Source of the DNA: an uncultured Thermogutta sp. | GTDB taxonomy: Bacteria > Planctomycetota > Planctomycetia > Pirellulales > Thermoguttaceae | Assembly: GCA_937128505.1 (NCBI GenBank) | Contig: CAKZMM010000063.1 | Span: forward strand, 1 to 37,440 | Direction of reading: 5' to 3' | DNA: 37,440 nt | Shown here: positions 16,286 through 23,233 of the stretch, one piece after another | How positions within the stretch are numbered: the first letter of the stretch is position 1 | How the letters are laid out: every line of letters begins with the position of its first letter | The notes under the pieces: model-generated | Told to the model about the DNA's origin: nothing | Seen by the model: only the letters and a program-made list of their open reading frames with translations | Database searches by the model: none | Made by a program: the position numbers and the translations under genes

Positions 16286-18568
16286 TCAGCCATTTGCGTT
16301 TCGGCCCGGCAACGGGCGCAATTTTCCTTCGGAAAGCCGGATTTTTACTCGACCAATCGGTGGCGGGAATTCGACGTTGGCCACCCGCTTCACACCACTG
16401 CCACTCAGCGCGACAATACGCCCGATCCCGTACTCGGCGTGCAGCACGGTCATCCCTTGGCGGAACTGATCGGGATGCACCGCAGGCCCGCTCCCGCCCG
16501 CCAACTCCGCTGCCGTGATAATGCGCGAATTCCCACGGTTAGGATTGGCCCGGGTCCCCGCGCTAGAAGCTGCCGGTAACGGGGCCTGATAGAACTGACT
16601 CTCATTCGATGGCAAAGCAGATAAACCACTTCGGTCCTCGAGGAGCATCTCCCCTCGCGGCAACTCGAACAAGAAAACACTGGGGATCGTAAGCCGACGT
16701 TGCCCGCGAAAGTCGCGGTACAGCACCCGGGTCAACGTGAGCTCTTCTCGGGCTCGCGTGATGCCCACGAACATCAGGCGACGTTCCTCTTCCAATTCGT
16801 CCGGGATATCACGGGCCCGCTCGTGGGGAAGAATCCCTTCCTCGACAGCGATCAGATAAACGACGGGAAACTCCAAACCTTTCGAGGCGTGCAAGGTCAT
16901 CAAGGTGACTCGATCATCCTGATCGTTCCAGGCATCAGTCTCGCCCACCAGAGACACTTCCTCGAGGAAATCGGCAAGATTGCCCTGGCTTTGATGTCGA
17001 TCGTCAAAGTCGCGGGCAACGGTAAGAAGCTCTTCGATATTCGCGAGCCGTTCCTGCGTTTGCTCGTCATGAGCCGATTCAAGATAGGCCCGGTAACCCG
17101 TTTCTTCCACGACAAGCCCGAGGAGTTCCTCCACGGGCCCCTGAGCCGCTTCCTCCAATCGGCGCCACATCCGCAGGAAAGTTTCCAGGGCGGGGCGGGC
17201 ACGCCGGGTCGTCAGAGCCACGGCTTCCGGAAGCTGCATGAGCTGGAATAAAGAAAGCCCCTTCTGACGGGCGAGGCCCAACCACCCCTCCACCGTGCCC
17301 TTTCCGATTCCGCGTGGGGGCACGGGCAGAATCCGCAGCAGCGCCTCGTCATCCCGGGGATTGTTCAAAAGTTGAAGATACGCAAGAAGGTCTTTGATCT
17401 CCTTTCGCTGGAAAAACTCGACGGCATTGACCAATTGATACGGTACGCCGCTCTCCCGGAAAGCAACTTCCAATGCCCGGCTTAGCGTGTTGACTCGATA
17501 AAACACCGCGAAATCGCGGTACTGTCGCTTCCCGGAATCGACTGCCTCGCGAATCTCCTGGGCAATGGCCTGGGCTTCGTCCTTTTGCGTTTCGAAGGTT
17601 AGTAATCGAACGGGCATCCCTTCGCCATTTTCTGTGAAAAGTTCCTTCGGCTTTCGACGCACGTTGTACTGGATGAGCCGGGCCGCCACGCGCAAAATCC
17701 GCTGAGTGCTCCGATAATTCTGCTCAAGCCGGATCACACGCACCGAGGGGTAGTCGTGCTCAAACTCCAAGATGTTCCGCAGGTTTGCCCCACGCCAATT
17801 GTAGATGGATTGATCCGGATCGCCCGTGACCGTCAGGTTCGGATGGTCAATCGACAAAGATCTCGCGATGGCGTATTGGGCCAAGTTAGTATCTTGGTAT
17901 TCGTCGACTAGGATGAAGCGGAACCGTTCATCCAACTCGGCCCGAACCTCCGGGTGTTCTCTCAACAGTCTTACGACATGGCACAGAAGATCGTCGAAAT
18001 CTACAGCGTTGGCGCGTAGCAGTGCTTCCTGGTATGCCGCATAGATGCGGCGGACCAAGTCGTCCGGAATCAAACCGCCACTGGTGCGGTAATGCTCCGG
18101 CTCAATGAGATTATTCTTCGCCCAACTGATGGCACTGGCGAATGCCTCGGGCCGAGCAAAAACTTCGTCGAGGTGATTCTGCCGAATTACCCGCCGGAGG
18201 ATTCGGCCGCTCTCCTCGGTATCGTAAATACTGAAGTTAACCTCCAGGCCGATGAGCCGAGCATAACGTCGCAACAACTGGGCACAAAATCGGTGGTAGG
18301 TCCCCATCCAAGCCTTCCGGCCCGGCAATAACGCCCCCACCCGCGCCTGCATCTCTTCAGCGGCTTTGTTCGTGAAGGTAAGGCCGAGGATTTGTTCCGG
18401 GCGAATCCCTTCGGAGATGAGATAGACGATGCGGTAGGTGATGACACGCGTTTTGCCGCTTCCGGGACCGGCCAACACAAGCAGAGGACCTTCCCCGTGG
18501 GTAACGGCTGCTCGCTGAGCCGGCGTTAAGGTGGCCAAAAGCCTATCGATTGATTCCGTAGTGAGCAT
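16286..18568 (-). CDS. pcrA: PcrA/UvrD-family superfamily 1 DNA helicase
   Basis: This ATP-dependent 3'-5' DNA helicase acts in nucleotide excision and mismatch repair and clears recombination intermediates. The 760-residue product has all SF1A motifs: Q motif LTPAQRAAVTHGEGPLLVLAG, Walker A GPGSGKT (34-40), Walker B LVDEYQDTN, GDPDQSIYNWRGA, QNYRST, TLHASKGLEFPVVYLIAVEEG (motif V region) and VGITRAREELTLT (motif VI). The C-terminus (GMTVLHAEYGIGRIVALSG and after) is a PcrA/UvrD Tudor-like domain that in relatives binds RNA polymerase. Start: the frame is open to 18622, but MLTTESIDRLLATL at 18568 is where homologs begin; AGGAG lies only one base before that ATG, closer than usual. It is divergent from the alpha-CTD-like gene. 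Confidence 0.94.
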   Translation of the reverse strand: MLTTESIDRLLATLTPAQRAAVTHGEGPLLVLAGPGSGKTRVITYRIVYLISEGIRPEQILGLTFTNKAAEEMQARVGALLPGRKAWMGTYHRFCAQLLRRYARLIGLEVNFSIYDTEESGRILRRVIRQNHLDEVFARPEAFASAISWAKNNLIEPEHYRTSGGLIPDDLVRRIYAAYQEALLRANAVDFDDLLCHVVRLLREHPEVRAELDERFRFILVDEYQDTNLAQYAIARSLSIDHPNLTVTGDPDQSIYNWRGANLRNILEFEHDYPSVRVIRLEQNYRSTQRILRVAARLIQYNVRRKPKELFTENGEGMPVRLLTFETQKDEAQAIAQEIREAVDSGKRQYRDFAVFYRVNTLSRALEVAFRESGVPYQLVNAVEFFQRKEIKDLLAYLQLLNNPRDDEALLRILPVPPRGIGKGTVEGWLGLARQKGLSLFQLMQLPEAVALTTRRARPALETFLRMWRRLEEAAQGPVEELLGLVVEETGYRAYLESAHDEQTQERLANIEELLTVARDFDDRHQSQGNLADFLEEVSLVGETDAWNDQDDRVTLMTLHASKGLEFPVVYLIAVEEGILPHERARDIPDELEEERRLMFVGITRAREELTLTRVLYRDFRGQRRLTIPSVFLFELPRGEMLLEDRSGLSALPSNESQFYQAPLPAASSAGTRANPNRGNSRIITAAELAGGSGPAVHPDQFRQGMTVLHAEYGIGRIVALSGSGVKRVANVEFPPPIGRVKIRLSEGKLRPLPGRNANG

Positions 18569-18657
18569 GCTCCTAGTGTTGCAGAAACCTCCGCAAGCGA
18601 CAAGATGATAGCACTTGTTCAAATGCTAGCTTTCCTGGCCCAAAGAGGGAATCGAAT

Positions 18658-18673
18658 CACTTCATCACTTCCG
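18658..18673. repeat. exact 8-bp tandem duplication
   Basis: ATCACTTC at 18658-18665 and 18666-18673, in the 308-bp divergent gap between pcrA and the alpha-CTD-like gene, which must hold both promoters. Confidence 0.7.
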
Positions 18674-18863
18674 GGATTAAATCCTGAGTAGCACAATTTG
18701 GGCATCTCGGTATATTATTAGGGGCTATTCGCGGTGTCGGGTTTTTGCGCCGGGTCGATCCTTCCAATCAAAATTCCACTGAACCGGTTGGCGCCAATTC
18801 GATGCAGCCTTTCGAACCCGAATGCCCTTGCCTGAAGCAGGAAATCATCGGCTCGTAAGATGC

Positions 18864-18869
18864 AGGAGG
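18864..18869 (+). promoter_or_regulatory. perfect Shine-Dalgarno site
   Basis: AGGAGG seven bases before ATG 18877. It stands out because most genes in this window have weak or no ribosome binding sites. Confidence 0.85.
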
Positions 18870-18876
18870 CCACTGT

Positions 18877-19332
18877 ATGGGATCGCGTACTCCGTTAAAC
18901 AAAGCCCGTCTTCAAGCGATGCAGCTTAGGGCAAAATTAGAGTTAAGCACCGCTGAAATCGGACTCTCCGTTCGCACGACGAATTGTTTGGAGGATAAGG
19001 GAATCTTTACGCTGGGCGATTTGCTGAACTGTACCCCAGATTTCCTGCTCAGCATTCCGAACTTTGGCGAAAAAACCCTGGAGGAGGTTTACCGTGTACT
19101 GGAGCGGCACGGTTTTTACCATAAGTCACGCGTCCCGCAGGCAAAGGCCGACTCCGTTTCGCACGATGTACAAGCCGGGCAAGGGGAACAACGGCTGGTC
19201 GTCATGGGTAATGCATCGTGGGGTTGGTCTCATGAGCATCAAGAGACCGCTTCCCCGCTGATGGCTGCGCAGATGCCCAACCCGCCGACGGTGGAAGAAA
19301 CTGCGACGGTGGAAATTCAGAACGAGTTGTGA
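18877..19332 (+). CDS. free-standing RNA polymerase alpha C-terminal-domain-like protein
   Basis: The 151-residue protein contains little more than one alpha-CTD module (about residues 22-82): ELSTAEIGLSVRTTNCLEDK, then GIFTLGDLLNCTPDFLLSIP, then NFGEKTLEEVYRVLERHGF. It lacks the alpha N-terminal domain that binds beta and beta'. Against E. coli alpha, the UP-element contacts are kept: Arg33 (R265), Asn36 (N268), Asn62 (N294), Gly64 (G296), Lys66 (K298), with Thr67 for S299 and Ser59 for K291. The last 65 residues are polar and probably disordered. It may bind AT-rich promoter DNA or regulators without joining core polymerase; this is inference. AGGAGG (18864-18869) seven bases upstream fixes the start and implies strong translation. 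A paralogous structural helix-hairpin-helix protein is the main alternative. Confidence 0.88.
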   Translation: MGSRTPLNKARLQAMQLRAKLELSTAEIGLSVRTTNCLEDKGIFTLGDLLNCTPDFLLSIPNFGEKTLEEVYRVLERHGFYHKSRVPQAKADSVSHDVQAGQGEQRLVVMGNASWGWSHEHQETASPLMAAQMPNPPTVEETATVEIQNEL

Positions 19333-19489
19333 ATGACAAGCGCGCTCCAGTGGGATGCATTTCCGATCAGCGAAAATCAATTCGTGGCCCCGGAGTAAGA
19401 TCGACAAGGGAACTCGATTGTCACAGTGACGTCAGCGTGCGGGGGTTGAGGAGTGAAGCGAAGGCTGTTGAATTCGAAGGGCAGGAGGC

Positions 19490-19506
19490 GGTGCCGGTTC
19501 GGCACC
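19490..19506. other. GC-rich 7-bp hairpin downstream of the alpha-CTD-like gene
   Basis: GGTGCCG, loop GTT, CGGCACC, about 160 bases after the stop codon. No T run follows, so it is not a standard intrinsic terminator, though it could protect a 3' end. Confidence 0.5.
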
Positions 19507-20144
19507 TCGTCACGGCAAGCGGTTGGGTCGATCGGAATCGTCGGCTAAGCCCGAGATTCTCTTCAAGGCTAAGCGGCTAAAACCGCCCGAGCCACGTCAG
19601 GATTCTCGTCCGGCTTTTGATCTCGCTTTCGAGATGTTTTCTGGCTCCTGCGAGGTTCCCCTACACCTGACGTCGGGGTTCGGCTTACCCATCGGAATAA
19701 ATCGCGGGGCTGAGTTCGTGCTCGCGGCACGGCATGAGCTTATGATGCTTCCGTCAGGATGAACCGGGGGTGAGGCCGAGTTTGCTATCCCGGATTAGTA
19801 CCCTGCCGCTGCGCATAAACACTCGGATTGGGCACTGGACATGCGGCACCTCCCTCGCCTGAACCAGCGATAAAGAATTCGTAAGCGAGATCGTACTGGG
19901 AATGTAGCTCTACCCTCACGGGTTTTCCGCATCATCGTAGTTTCTTGCCGCTGGGAGTCAGACCCAAAGATTGGTTCGAGGTTCGTTCTCCGCCGAGCGG
20001 AAGTTCCCTCTGCCCTCGTCCTTGCTACTTCCAGACATCTTTACCTTTCCTATCCAGAAACTCCTACCGTGTTTTGGCCCGGAGTGCGTGCACAGTTTTG
20101 GTACAACTGCTTGCCCTTCCATTCTTTGTACTCATAATGGAAAT

Positions 20145-21079: not shown

Positions 21080-21226
21080 TCGCAACATCAACGTGATCCG
21101 AATTTCGCCGTAATATTTCTAACAAGCTTGCGTTTCTCATTTTCGGAAAAAGTGAGCGATTCGGGACTCATCGTCCCAGTTAACGGCAATTATCTGTTGA
21201 ATTGATTGGGGGTAAGGGGATTGAAC

Positions 21227-23233
21227 GTGTCGGACCTGGCATATTTGGTGATTCGCGAAGGTTCAAAGTGGACCGACGTGTTTCGCCTAATTCCTGGTCA
21301 GACGGTCACCATTGGCCGGGCACCGACGAACCAAATCGTCTTAAAAGACGAGCGGTGTAGTCGGAACCATGCCGAGCTGTTCATGGCCGACGGAAAATGG
21401 ACCCTCCGCGACCTGGATAGCCGTAACGGTACGGTGGTTGGCGACAAACTCCTCAAAAGTGATTGGGTGCTGAGGCCCGGCGACATCATCCGCATCGGTC
21501 GCTCGCAGTTAATCTTTGTTCAGAATCTAAGCGATGCCTTTTCCGATTTGACGGCTTCGGTCCGGGTTAACGACTCGGAACCGGCGAGTGCATCGGTGGC
21601 TTCCGATGAGTCGCAGTCAAGCGTTTTAGAAGTCTGCGAGCCGACAACCATCACTCATCGTCGTGGTCAGACGCGGTTTTTAGCGTCGGTCGAGGCCGCC
21701 GAAATCGAATTGCCCAAGGTCGGGCGGGCAGCAGCCAAACTATGCCGGCTGGCTTTCGAGCTGGGCAAAGCCCCCAATGTCGGCAAAATGGCAGAGCTTG
21801 CCTTAGCGGGGCTGTTCGAAGCCTTGGCGGTGGATGCCGGGGCCATTCTGCTGCTGCCCCGCGATTATCGGGGGGTGCCCACGGCGGCTCAGCTTCAAGT
21901 GGTGGCTTCCCAGAGCAAAACCGACCAGCGCTACCACCGCGTCGCGGACTTCTTAGCGAACACCGTGCTCAGGGAAGGCGAAGCGGTCCTTGCCCGGAAT
22001 GTCCTCGGCGATAGCTATCTCGGTAGCCGCGACAGCAAGGGAGTGATTCATACCACAAGCGTGATCTGTGCTCCCGTACGTCATGGGCCGAATGTGCTAG
22101 GGTTGGTGCATCTTTATTCGACCGATCCCGATCACGGGCCAGATCCCGACGACCTAGAGTACACCTTGGCCGTCGCCGACACGGTGGCGGTCGCGCTCAG
22201 TAACCTTAACCGGCAGGAAGAATTAGTCGAAAACTTGACCCAGATCCGCATCGAAAATGTTCGCTTGCGGGAGCAGTTGGGCGCCCAAAGCGAGATTATC
22301 GGCTGTAGCGAAGCCATCAAACGGATCAACGAAGAGATTGCCCGGGCGGCAGCCAGTCGGGCAACTCTGCTCATCCGCGGCGAAAGTGGCGTCGGCAAAG
22401 AATTGGTCGCTCGCGCCGTTCATTTCAATAGTCCGAGGCGGAAGAACGTCTTTGTTTGCTTGAATTGTGCGGCCTTATCGGAGGAGCTTTTGGCCAGCGA
22501 ACTTTTCGGGCATGAGCGGGGAGCTTTTACCGGGGCAACGGAACGGAAAATCGGCAAATTCGAAGCAGCTCACACGGGTACCTTGATGCTGGATGAAATC
22601 GGGGAAATGAGCCCGAGCATCCAGGCCAAGTTCCTGCGCGTTTTGGAGGGACATCCGTTCGAGCGCGTCGGGGGAAGCAAACCGATTAAAGTCGACGTCC
22701 GGGTCATTGCCGCCACAAACCGCGATTTGGAACGGGACGTTGCCGAAGGGCGATTCCGGCACGATCTTTTCTTCCGGCTTCGCGTGCTTGAAATCGTGGT
22801 GCCTTCCTTGCGTAAGCGGCCCGAGGACATTCCCGTTTTGGCGGAGTACTTCCTGAATAAATTCCGCGCCGAAACGGGCCGGAAGATCGAAGGATTTACC
22901 GCCGCCGCAATGGATAAACTCATGCACTACCGTTGGCCGGGGAATGTTCGCGAACTGAAGAACGTCATTGAGCGTGCAATAGTGCTTTGCCAGGGTCGCT
23001 TTATCGACGAGGAAGATCTGCTTCTTTCTAAGCTGGCAACTGTGGGCGATACGGCCGAGACGCAGTCCGTCCCGCAGGGCTATGCCCCTTGCCCGCTCGA
23101 TGAGGTCGAGCGCCGCCATATCTTGGCTACTCTCGAATACACGCGGTGGAACAAGAGTCGCGCCGCCCAAATTCTGGGAATCGAGCGATCCACCCTAGAT
23201 CGGAAACTGCGCCGCTACCAACTGGAAAACTGA
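21227..23233 (+). CDS. sigma-54-dependent activator: FHA-GAF-AAA+-Fis
   Basis: This enhancer-binding protein opens promoters held by sigma-54 RNA polymerase. The order in 668 residues is an FHA domain (about 10-90: [28 protein letters not shown]), which binds phosphothreonine; a GAF sensor (about 165-325); an AAA+ domain (about 360-590) with Walker A GESGVGKE, the sigma-54 contact loop GAFTGA near residue 432, Walker [10 protein letters not shown], and [20 protein letters not shown]; and a Fis-type helix-turn-helix ([20 protein letters not shown], to the end). There is no receiver domain, so the input is probably Ser/Thr kinase phosphorylation plus a small ligand. Start: GTG 21227 with AAGGGGA six bases upstream fits better than the in-frame TTG codons at 21206 and 21221. 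Target genes are unknown. Confidence 0.95.

Follow-up and report, generated by a model that had tools for sequence, protein, structure and literature searches.

A free-standing RNA polymerase alpha-CTD gene of the Pirellulales, possibly encoding a regulator that acts in trans

Introduction

In E. coli, residue E261 of the C-terminal domain of the RNA polymerase alpha subunit (alpha-CTD) is part of the surface that contacts sigma. DNA binding by the isolated alpha-CTD is weak. According to the available part of PMC7822876, in the E. coli rrnB P1 complex R265 and N294 lie in the minor groove while K291 and K298 form salt bridges to the DNA backbone, and the available part of PMC2801614 states that the B. 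subtilis alpha-CTD without its N-terminal domain (NTD) binds promoter DNA in vitro. Duplicated alpha material is also known from the second RpoA of Francisella; however, as described in the accessible portion of PMC3294249, the whole subunit is duplicated there and assembles into polymerase, while in the Pirellulales only the CTD is duplicated. No description of a natural free alpha-CTD was found in the literature searched, which mostly did not extend to subscription papers and preprints, and within this scope the statement of the initial annotation that a regulatory role for such a protein is not known to be described still stands.

The protein considered here has the fold, sequence family and DNA-contact residues of the RpoA CTD (PF03118), but it lacks both the NTD and the linker and carries an N-terminal motif of its own. 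Unlike the RpoA of these bacteria, which has T or Q at position 298 (E. coli numbering), it has K298 and mostly Gly261 and Tyr304.

The alpha-CTD gene and its product

The gene is located in a 37,440-nucleotide stretch (the window) from an uncultured Thermogutta sp. of the order Pirellulales. The features relevant to it are the following.

18877..19332, + strand: free-standing alpha-CTD gene, 151 aa (ORF, PF03118 match, orthologs)
18928..19104, + strand: alpha-CTD domain, residues 18-76 (Pfam match, AlphaFold2 model, structural alignment, residue counts)
18877..18897, + strand: conserved motif at the N-terminus with the consensus x-T-R-I-P-L, in this copy M-G-S-R-T-P-L (aligned orthologs)
19129..19329, + strand: lineage-specific C-terminal tail, mostly of low confidence, residues 85-151 (pLDDT, ortholog lengths)
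18864-18869, + strand: Shine-Dalgarno sequence AGGAGG (sequence, duplex energy)
18623..18876, no strand: intergenic region between the alpha-CTD gene and the divergent PcrA gene (ORF map, locus comparison)
16286..18622, - strand: PcrA/UvrD-type helicase, encoded divergently next to the alpha-CTD gene in many of the orthologous loci (NCBIfam pcrA)

The ORF starts with ATG, and residues 18-76 of its product match RNA_pol_A_CTD (PF03118) with an E-value of 3.3e-17 and 62.4 bits (cut-off 23.8), while the alpha-NTD family is absent among the Pfam matches of the protein. The NCBIfam rpoA equivalogs match the CTD part only and far under their cut-offs (best 51.1 of 277 bits), and HHH_5 also matches under its cut-off. 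The PHROGs phage families gave no match at E 0.001, and the single weak match in a PADLOC scan was PglW (E 1.4e-4).

An AlphaFold2 model of the window protein, built from 95 aligned orthologs, has mean pLDDT values per 10-residue block of 88-95 over residues 11-80, and pLDDT is below 50 in residues 86-112. Residues 18-83 of the model pair with residues 250-315 of the E. coli alpha-CTD 1lb2_E (VIA-align; 66 aligned, rmsd 1.5, Z 10.3), and Z reaches 11.7 among alpha-CTDs; the best Foldseek match is 9dvt_A (E 2.1e-5, rmsd 0.9). The offset of 232 in the 1lb2_E alignment makes R33, N36, C37, N62, G64 and K66 the equivalents of R265, N268, C269, N294, G296 and K298. The Pfam match, the model and this superposition thus bear out the reading of the ORF as an isolated alpha-CTD with the equivalents of R265, N268, N294, G296 and K298 and without an alpha-NTD; the idea was said to fail if the predicted structure differed from an alpha-CTD, and the model superposes on solved alpha-CTDs (1lb2_E and 9dvt_A).

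The N-terminal motif is recurrent in the 95 aligned orthologs (R4 in 94, P6 in 85, T3 in 84), the counts for R4 and P6 not being independent because the rule used to find start codons included part of the motif; two loci outside this alignment read TRIP (L095) and TRIR (L070). The 95 orthologs have a median length of 93 aa, and only one of them has 140 aa or more. The window copy exceeds all the others in length; its last ~60 residues are therefore a lineage-specific tail.

The AGGAGG of the alpha-CTD gene, with a duplex energy of -10.3, is the best among the first start codons of 18 chosen ORFs of the window; in two other ORFs, start codons further inside the frame equal or almost equal it (-10.3 and -10.2). 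A simple scan of positions 18500-19700 for sigma-70-type promoters found no sites, and the intergenic region is only slightly AT-rich (0.49 versus 0.45).

For comparison 101 orthologous loci were used, no two of which are identical over the last 200 bases ahead of the stop codon, with close relatives and the two halves of the G023 gene counted apart. In 56 of them the pattern GGGAGGGA-N(0-4)-CCC stands directly 5' of the start codon, a count that is not independent, because the pattern was read off those starts; it occurs nowhere else in their 1.08 Mb, and one mononucleotide shuffle of the loci contains seven copies. Four whole genomes have 9, 9, 4 and 5 copies versus 5, 3, 3 and 1 of the reversed control pattern; one site per genome is at the alpha-CTD gene (two overlapping rows in G012), and a few others stand before unrelated starts. 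The window copy has the plain AGGAGG in place of this pattern. No RNA hairpin at the start is indicated by folds of the 54 bases around it, which have no excess stability (mean z +0.57).

RpoA and other alpha-CTD proteins of the host genome

The host genome (G000; 5.58 Mb, 198 contigs, 98.26% complete) contains five PF03118 stretches, two in a TPR protein and one each in RpoA, the window protein and a sigma-70-region-4 protein. The initial annotation proposed a check for a normal full-length rpoA elsewhere, and one is present on contig C21: it encodes a 342-aa RpoA with its own CTD and the only PF01193 (NTD) match of the genome. Because this rpoA is full-length and has its own CTD, the window gene is not one part of a split subunit, and that explanation is rejected.

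At DNA-contact positions the RpoA CTD has drifted in the two genomes of the window's genus that were read (G001 and G000, of three with G002), with S in place of N268 in G001 (L194) and S in place of C269 in G000 (L003).

The TPR protein of the same genomes resembles the free protein in carrying alpha-CTDs outside RpoA, but it differs in being a protein of 440 aa with TPRs, in having T at 298 and, in its second CTD, K or R in place of N268, and in forming separate clades. In the host genome it is encoded on contig C37 (L001 394-1716) and its two alpha-CTDs are in tandem; at the N268 position the second has K in 20 of the 21 proteins read and R in G024, whose TPR protein is missing from the core counts given below since the selecting expression missed it. 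Further alpha-CTD matches in the order, class and phylum samples mostly number two or three per genome, and many of the frames are RpoA-sized or ~430-530 aa long, so the TPR protein may be phylum-wide. The sigma-70-region-4 protein, on contig C162 (L005 1192-3165), has at least 658 aa and combines an alpha-CTD-like stretch with the region 4 match.

Distribution, conservation and ancestry

The distribution was searched with a profile of 33 rows (alignment A1) that had been picked by a regular expression including the contact residues. The orthologs that were to be sought in relatives are widespread within the order of the window and, at the scores used, confined to it in the samples. At E 5.6e-37 or better a free ortholog is found in 34 of 35 genomes of the order; the remainder of the class, sampled with 113 genomes, yielded none, its best match being 1.6e-23 or weaker. 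In a larger Pirellulales sample of 118 genomes with a completeness of 90% or more, 114 carry the gene at E 1.3e-31 or better, and none of 117 genomes from the phylum outside the order reaches the score (best 1.2e-21). Since presence is defined by a score cut, strongly diverged short forms are missed, for example those of G014 and G017 (85 and 93 bits). Two of the four genomes without the gene (G143 and G185) have sampled siblings in their genera that carry it (G155 and G194), and the other two (G191 and G218) are both sampled members of one genus. The free alpha-CTD is thus an order-wide family, typically of ~93 aa.

Among 40 genomes including that of the window, all have some alpha-CTD match, RpoA counted, and 38 have the short free gene; none was found in G003 (82% complete) and G013 (68% complete). 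The gene is divergent in G014 and G017, and the G023 copy is cut by contig ends. In a search of named genomes the best 80 of 373 confirmed stretches are nearly all planctomycete, many from Pirellulales, and include Blastopirellula marina DSM 3645 and Botrimarina, as well as one MAG labelled Candidatus Nealsonbacteria and one labelled only 'bacterium'.

Conservation was counted in a set of 37 orthologs found by similarity alone, with the window protein included and G003, G013 and G023 left out. The equivalents of R265, N268, N294, G296 and K298 are present in 37/37, C269 in 35/37 (F in G014 and G017), E302 in 34/37 and Gly at 261 in 35/37. In the 95-row alignment (A2) positions 265, 268, 269, 294, 296, 298 and 299 are kept in all rows, 302 in 93 and Gly261 in 94; this overstates conservation, because most rows were found by exact peptide patterns in which contact residues take part (from the best 80 of 373), and the 37-row count is the fairer one. 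Six of the 101 loci are not in A2: in L095 and L070 the start was not found by the rule, L071 and L072 scored low, and L073 and L074 are one gene cut by contig ends.

The RpoA proteins of the order (n=21) keep R265, N294, G296 and E302 in 21, N268 in 20 and C269 in 19, while position 298 is T in 20 (Q in one), as it is in all 20 genomes of other orders. A stricter DNA face in the free protein than in RpoA is therefore supported by the counts at position 298 only, and because RpoA keeps the contacts about equally elsewhere, the conservation is no specific pointer to DNA binding as a new role. Instead of marking stronger binding, K298 may be an ancestral residue. T266, Y304 and F312 are among the other positions at which A2 differs from 41 RpoA CTDs; position 261 varies in the RpoA of these bacteria too.

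Over 57-residue cores from the 17 genomes that contain all four kinds, the mean pairwise identity is 83.1% for the free protein and 71.3% for RpoA, and 83.7% and 78.9% for the first and second CTD of the TPR protein. Within one genome the free and RpoA cores are 46.6% alike. The free family forms one side of a branch with a support of 99/100, in an alignment of 57 columns for which the bootstrap has not settled, and thus has a single origin on this short alignment.

In 90 of the 101 loci, with the cores cut out by motif, codons with a single difference comprise 13,620 nonsynonymous and 97,104 synonymous cases, counted over pairs that are not independent. Identity is higher between the amino-acid sequences (0.822) than between the nucleotide sequences (0.726), and third positions account for about two thirds of the differences. 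Judged by these codon comparisons, the gene is under purifying selection. The order-wide retention and the synonymous excess led us to reject a chance ORF.

Genomic context

The divergent neighbour (16286..18622) has pcrA as its best NCBIfam match, with 724.8 bits, under the cut-off of 911.2. Linkage was scored on the 97 loci with 600 or more bases upstream: PcrA lies within 4 kb upstream in 63, divergently oriented in 63/63, and is absent in 34. The conserved context that the initial annotation proposed to look for is thus found in part, upstream PcrA being retained in the majority of loci but not in the remainder. On the downstream side one gene cluster, on the same strand, is kept in 55 of the 91 loci with room for it; the single member that was scanned encodes a DUF3592 protein. 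The window keeps the PcrA side only; its DUF480 gene and the next two genes were seen in one of 38 fetched loci (L037), some of which are short. The linkage to PcrA is real, but it is part of a partly retained gene block.

A regulator with FHA, GAF, sigma54 activator and Fis-type HTH parts is encoded downstream in the window (21206-23233, +); among the 38 loci a weak match to it occurs only in L053.

Alpha-CTDs fused to HTH-like segments

In one family of the order (f10) all five sampled genomes (G184, G192, G206, G033 and G200) contain a frame that matches both the HTH-like and the alpha-CTD part of one fusion protein. Fusions with HTH-like, Cys-rich and alpha-CTD parts are located as follows.

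L281, 600-1292
L282, 795-1430
L284, ~1049-1720

In G033, G184 and G206 the mean identity of the fusion alpha-CTD is 47.0, 57.3 and 55.4% to the free family and 28.2, 39.5 and 38.0% to RpoA, respectively. A FastTree phylogeny places these three within the free group (support 0.998), next to G014 and G017 (0.905); they have K at 298 but A at 296. The HTH matches in the fusion proteins fall under the Pfam cut-offs, and the HTH-like part alone has matches in short frames of other families. This fusion may tie the alpha-CTD domain to DNA-binding regulators.

Possible functions of the free alpha-CTD

The reading that we prefer, tentatively and at slightly less than even chances, is that a duplicated RpoA CTD became a detached gene whose product regulates transcription in trans by binding the minor groove of DNA. 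In the ancestor of the Pirellulales the CTD of a planctomycete RpoA would have been duplicated and given rise to a single-copy gene of its own, the resulting ~93-aa protein keeping the minor-groove DNA-binding face, including K298, with Gly in place of the E261 of E. coli. The free alpha-CTD would be a small regulator that works in trans on upstream sites rich in A/T, and it would change promoter use either by occupying sites of the RpoA CTD or by presenting another partner through its N-terminal TRIPL motif. DNA binding, the type of site, the effect on promoters and the partner are all putative, and the roles put forward from the sequence at the outset, competition for UP elements or adaptation of activators to DNA, are candidates of the same standing. 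Given the weak DNA binding of an isolated alpha-CTD, the protein may depend on a partner. In favour of this reading are the fold and residue equivalence, the strict retention of the contact residues together with K298, the greater similarity among free cores than among RpoA cores, the single clade, the presence in 114/118 genomes, the fusion to an HTH-like segment and the promoter binding of the B. subtilis alpha-CTD; the comparable retention of the other contact positions in RpoA, the four genomes that lack the gene and the only slight AT-richness of the window's intergenic region speak against it.

In an alternative reading the TRIPL motif would dock the free alpha-CTD on polymerase, sigma or an activator, which would make it an interchangeable third alpha-CTD for the recruitment of polymerase. 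The N-terminal motif, which lies outside the domain and recurs (with the start rule using part of it), the retained DNA face and the paralogue fused to an HTH-like segment are all consistent with this adaptor function, but Gly at 261 in 35/37 orthologs argues mildly against the protein merely replacing the RpoA CTD beside sigma, although 261 varies in RpoA too, and we consider the adaptor unlikely. Another alternative has the protein work with the divergent helicase in transcription-coupled repair or R-loop removal. PcrA/UvrD binds RNA polymerase, according to the available part of PMC8318588, which also describes a helicase interaction motif with a TGE triad, and divergent PcrA is the neighbour in most loci. 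However, the downstream gene is kept nearly as often, so the association with PcrA could be a matter of inherited gene order; 34 loci have the alpha-CTD but no PcrA, the TGE triad is present in 0/101 of the free proteins, and the host genome holds other genes of the UvrD type (PF00580 has five matches in total). Cooperation with PcrA is therefore quite improbable.

A helix-hairpin-helix DNA protein acting outside transcription, in repair or nucleoid structure, is suggested by the HHH_5 match under its cut-off and by yeast Dmc1 rows among the structural matches of the model (Z 9.5 and 9.2), but the polymerase alpha-CTD matches better in both sequence and structure, which makes a role of this kind about as improbable as one with the helicase. 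Absence from 4/118 genomes could point to a functionless relic, against which stand purifying selection and retention in the other 114; a relic is extremely improbable.

If the preferred reading of a detached, trans-acting regulator is true, a core polymerase domain would be an independent order-wide regulator in bacteria that also have alpha-CTDs in TPR and HTH-like proteins, the supply or blocking of UP-element recognition in trans would become testable, and planctomycete promoter biology would gain a concrete, small and expressible target. That the reading of upstream DNA in the Pirellulales is performed partly by the detached alpha-CTD, working in trans together with, or in opposition to, a polymerase that has no K298 in its own CTD, is a broader proposal that we regard as decidedly doubtful; if it is true, a polymerase domain would have turned into a transcription factor.

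Short alpha-CTD frames of viral contigs

Five frames from viral contigs (L189, L190, L191, L192 and L193) resemble the free protein in being short alpha-CTD frames in which an NTD was not seen. They differ from it in being 33-48% identical over the matched part, and the three of the five that were scanned have no PHROGs match. The free alpha-CTD of viral contig L189 shares 62% identity with Salmonella RpoA across 85 residues. Matches occur in 19 phage records, mostly unannotated or annotated as rpoA.
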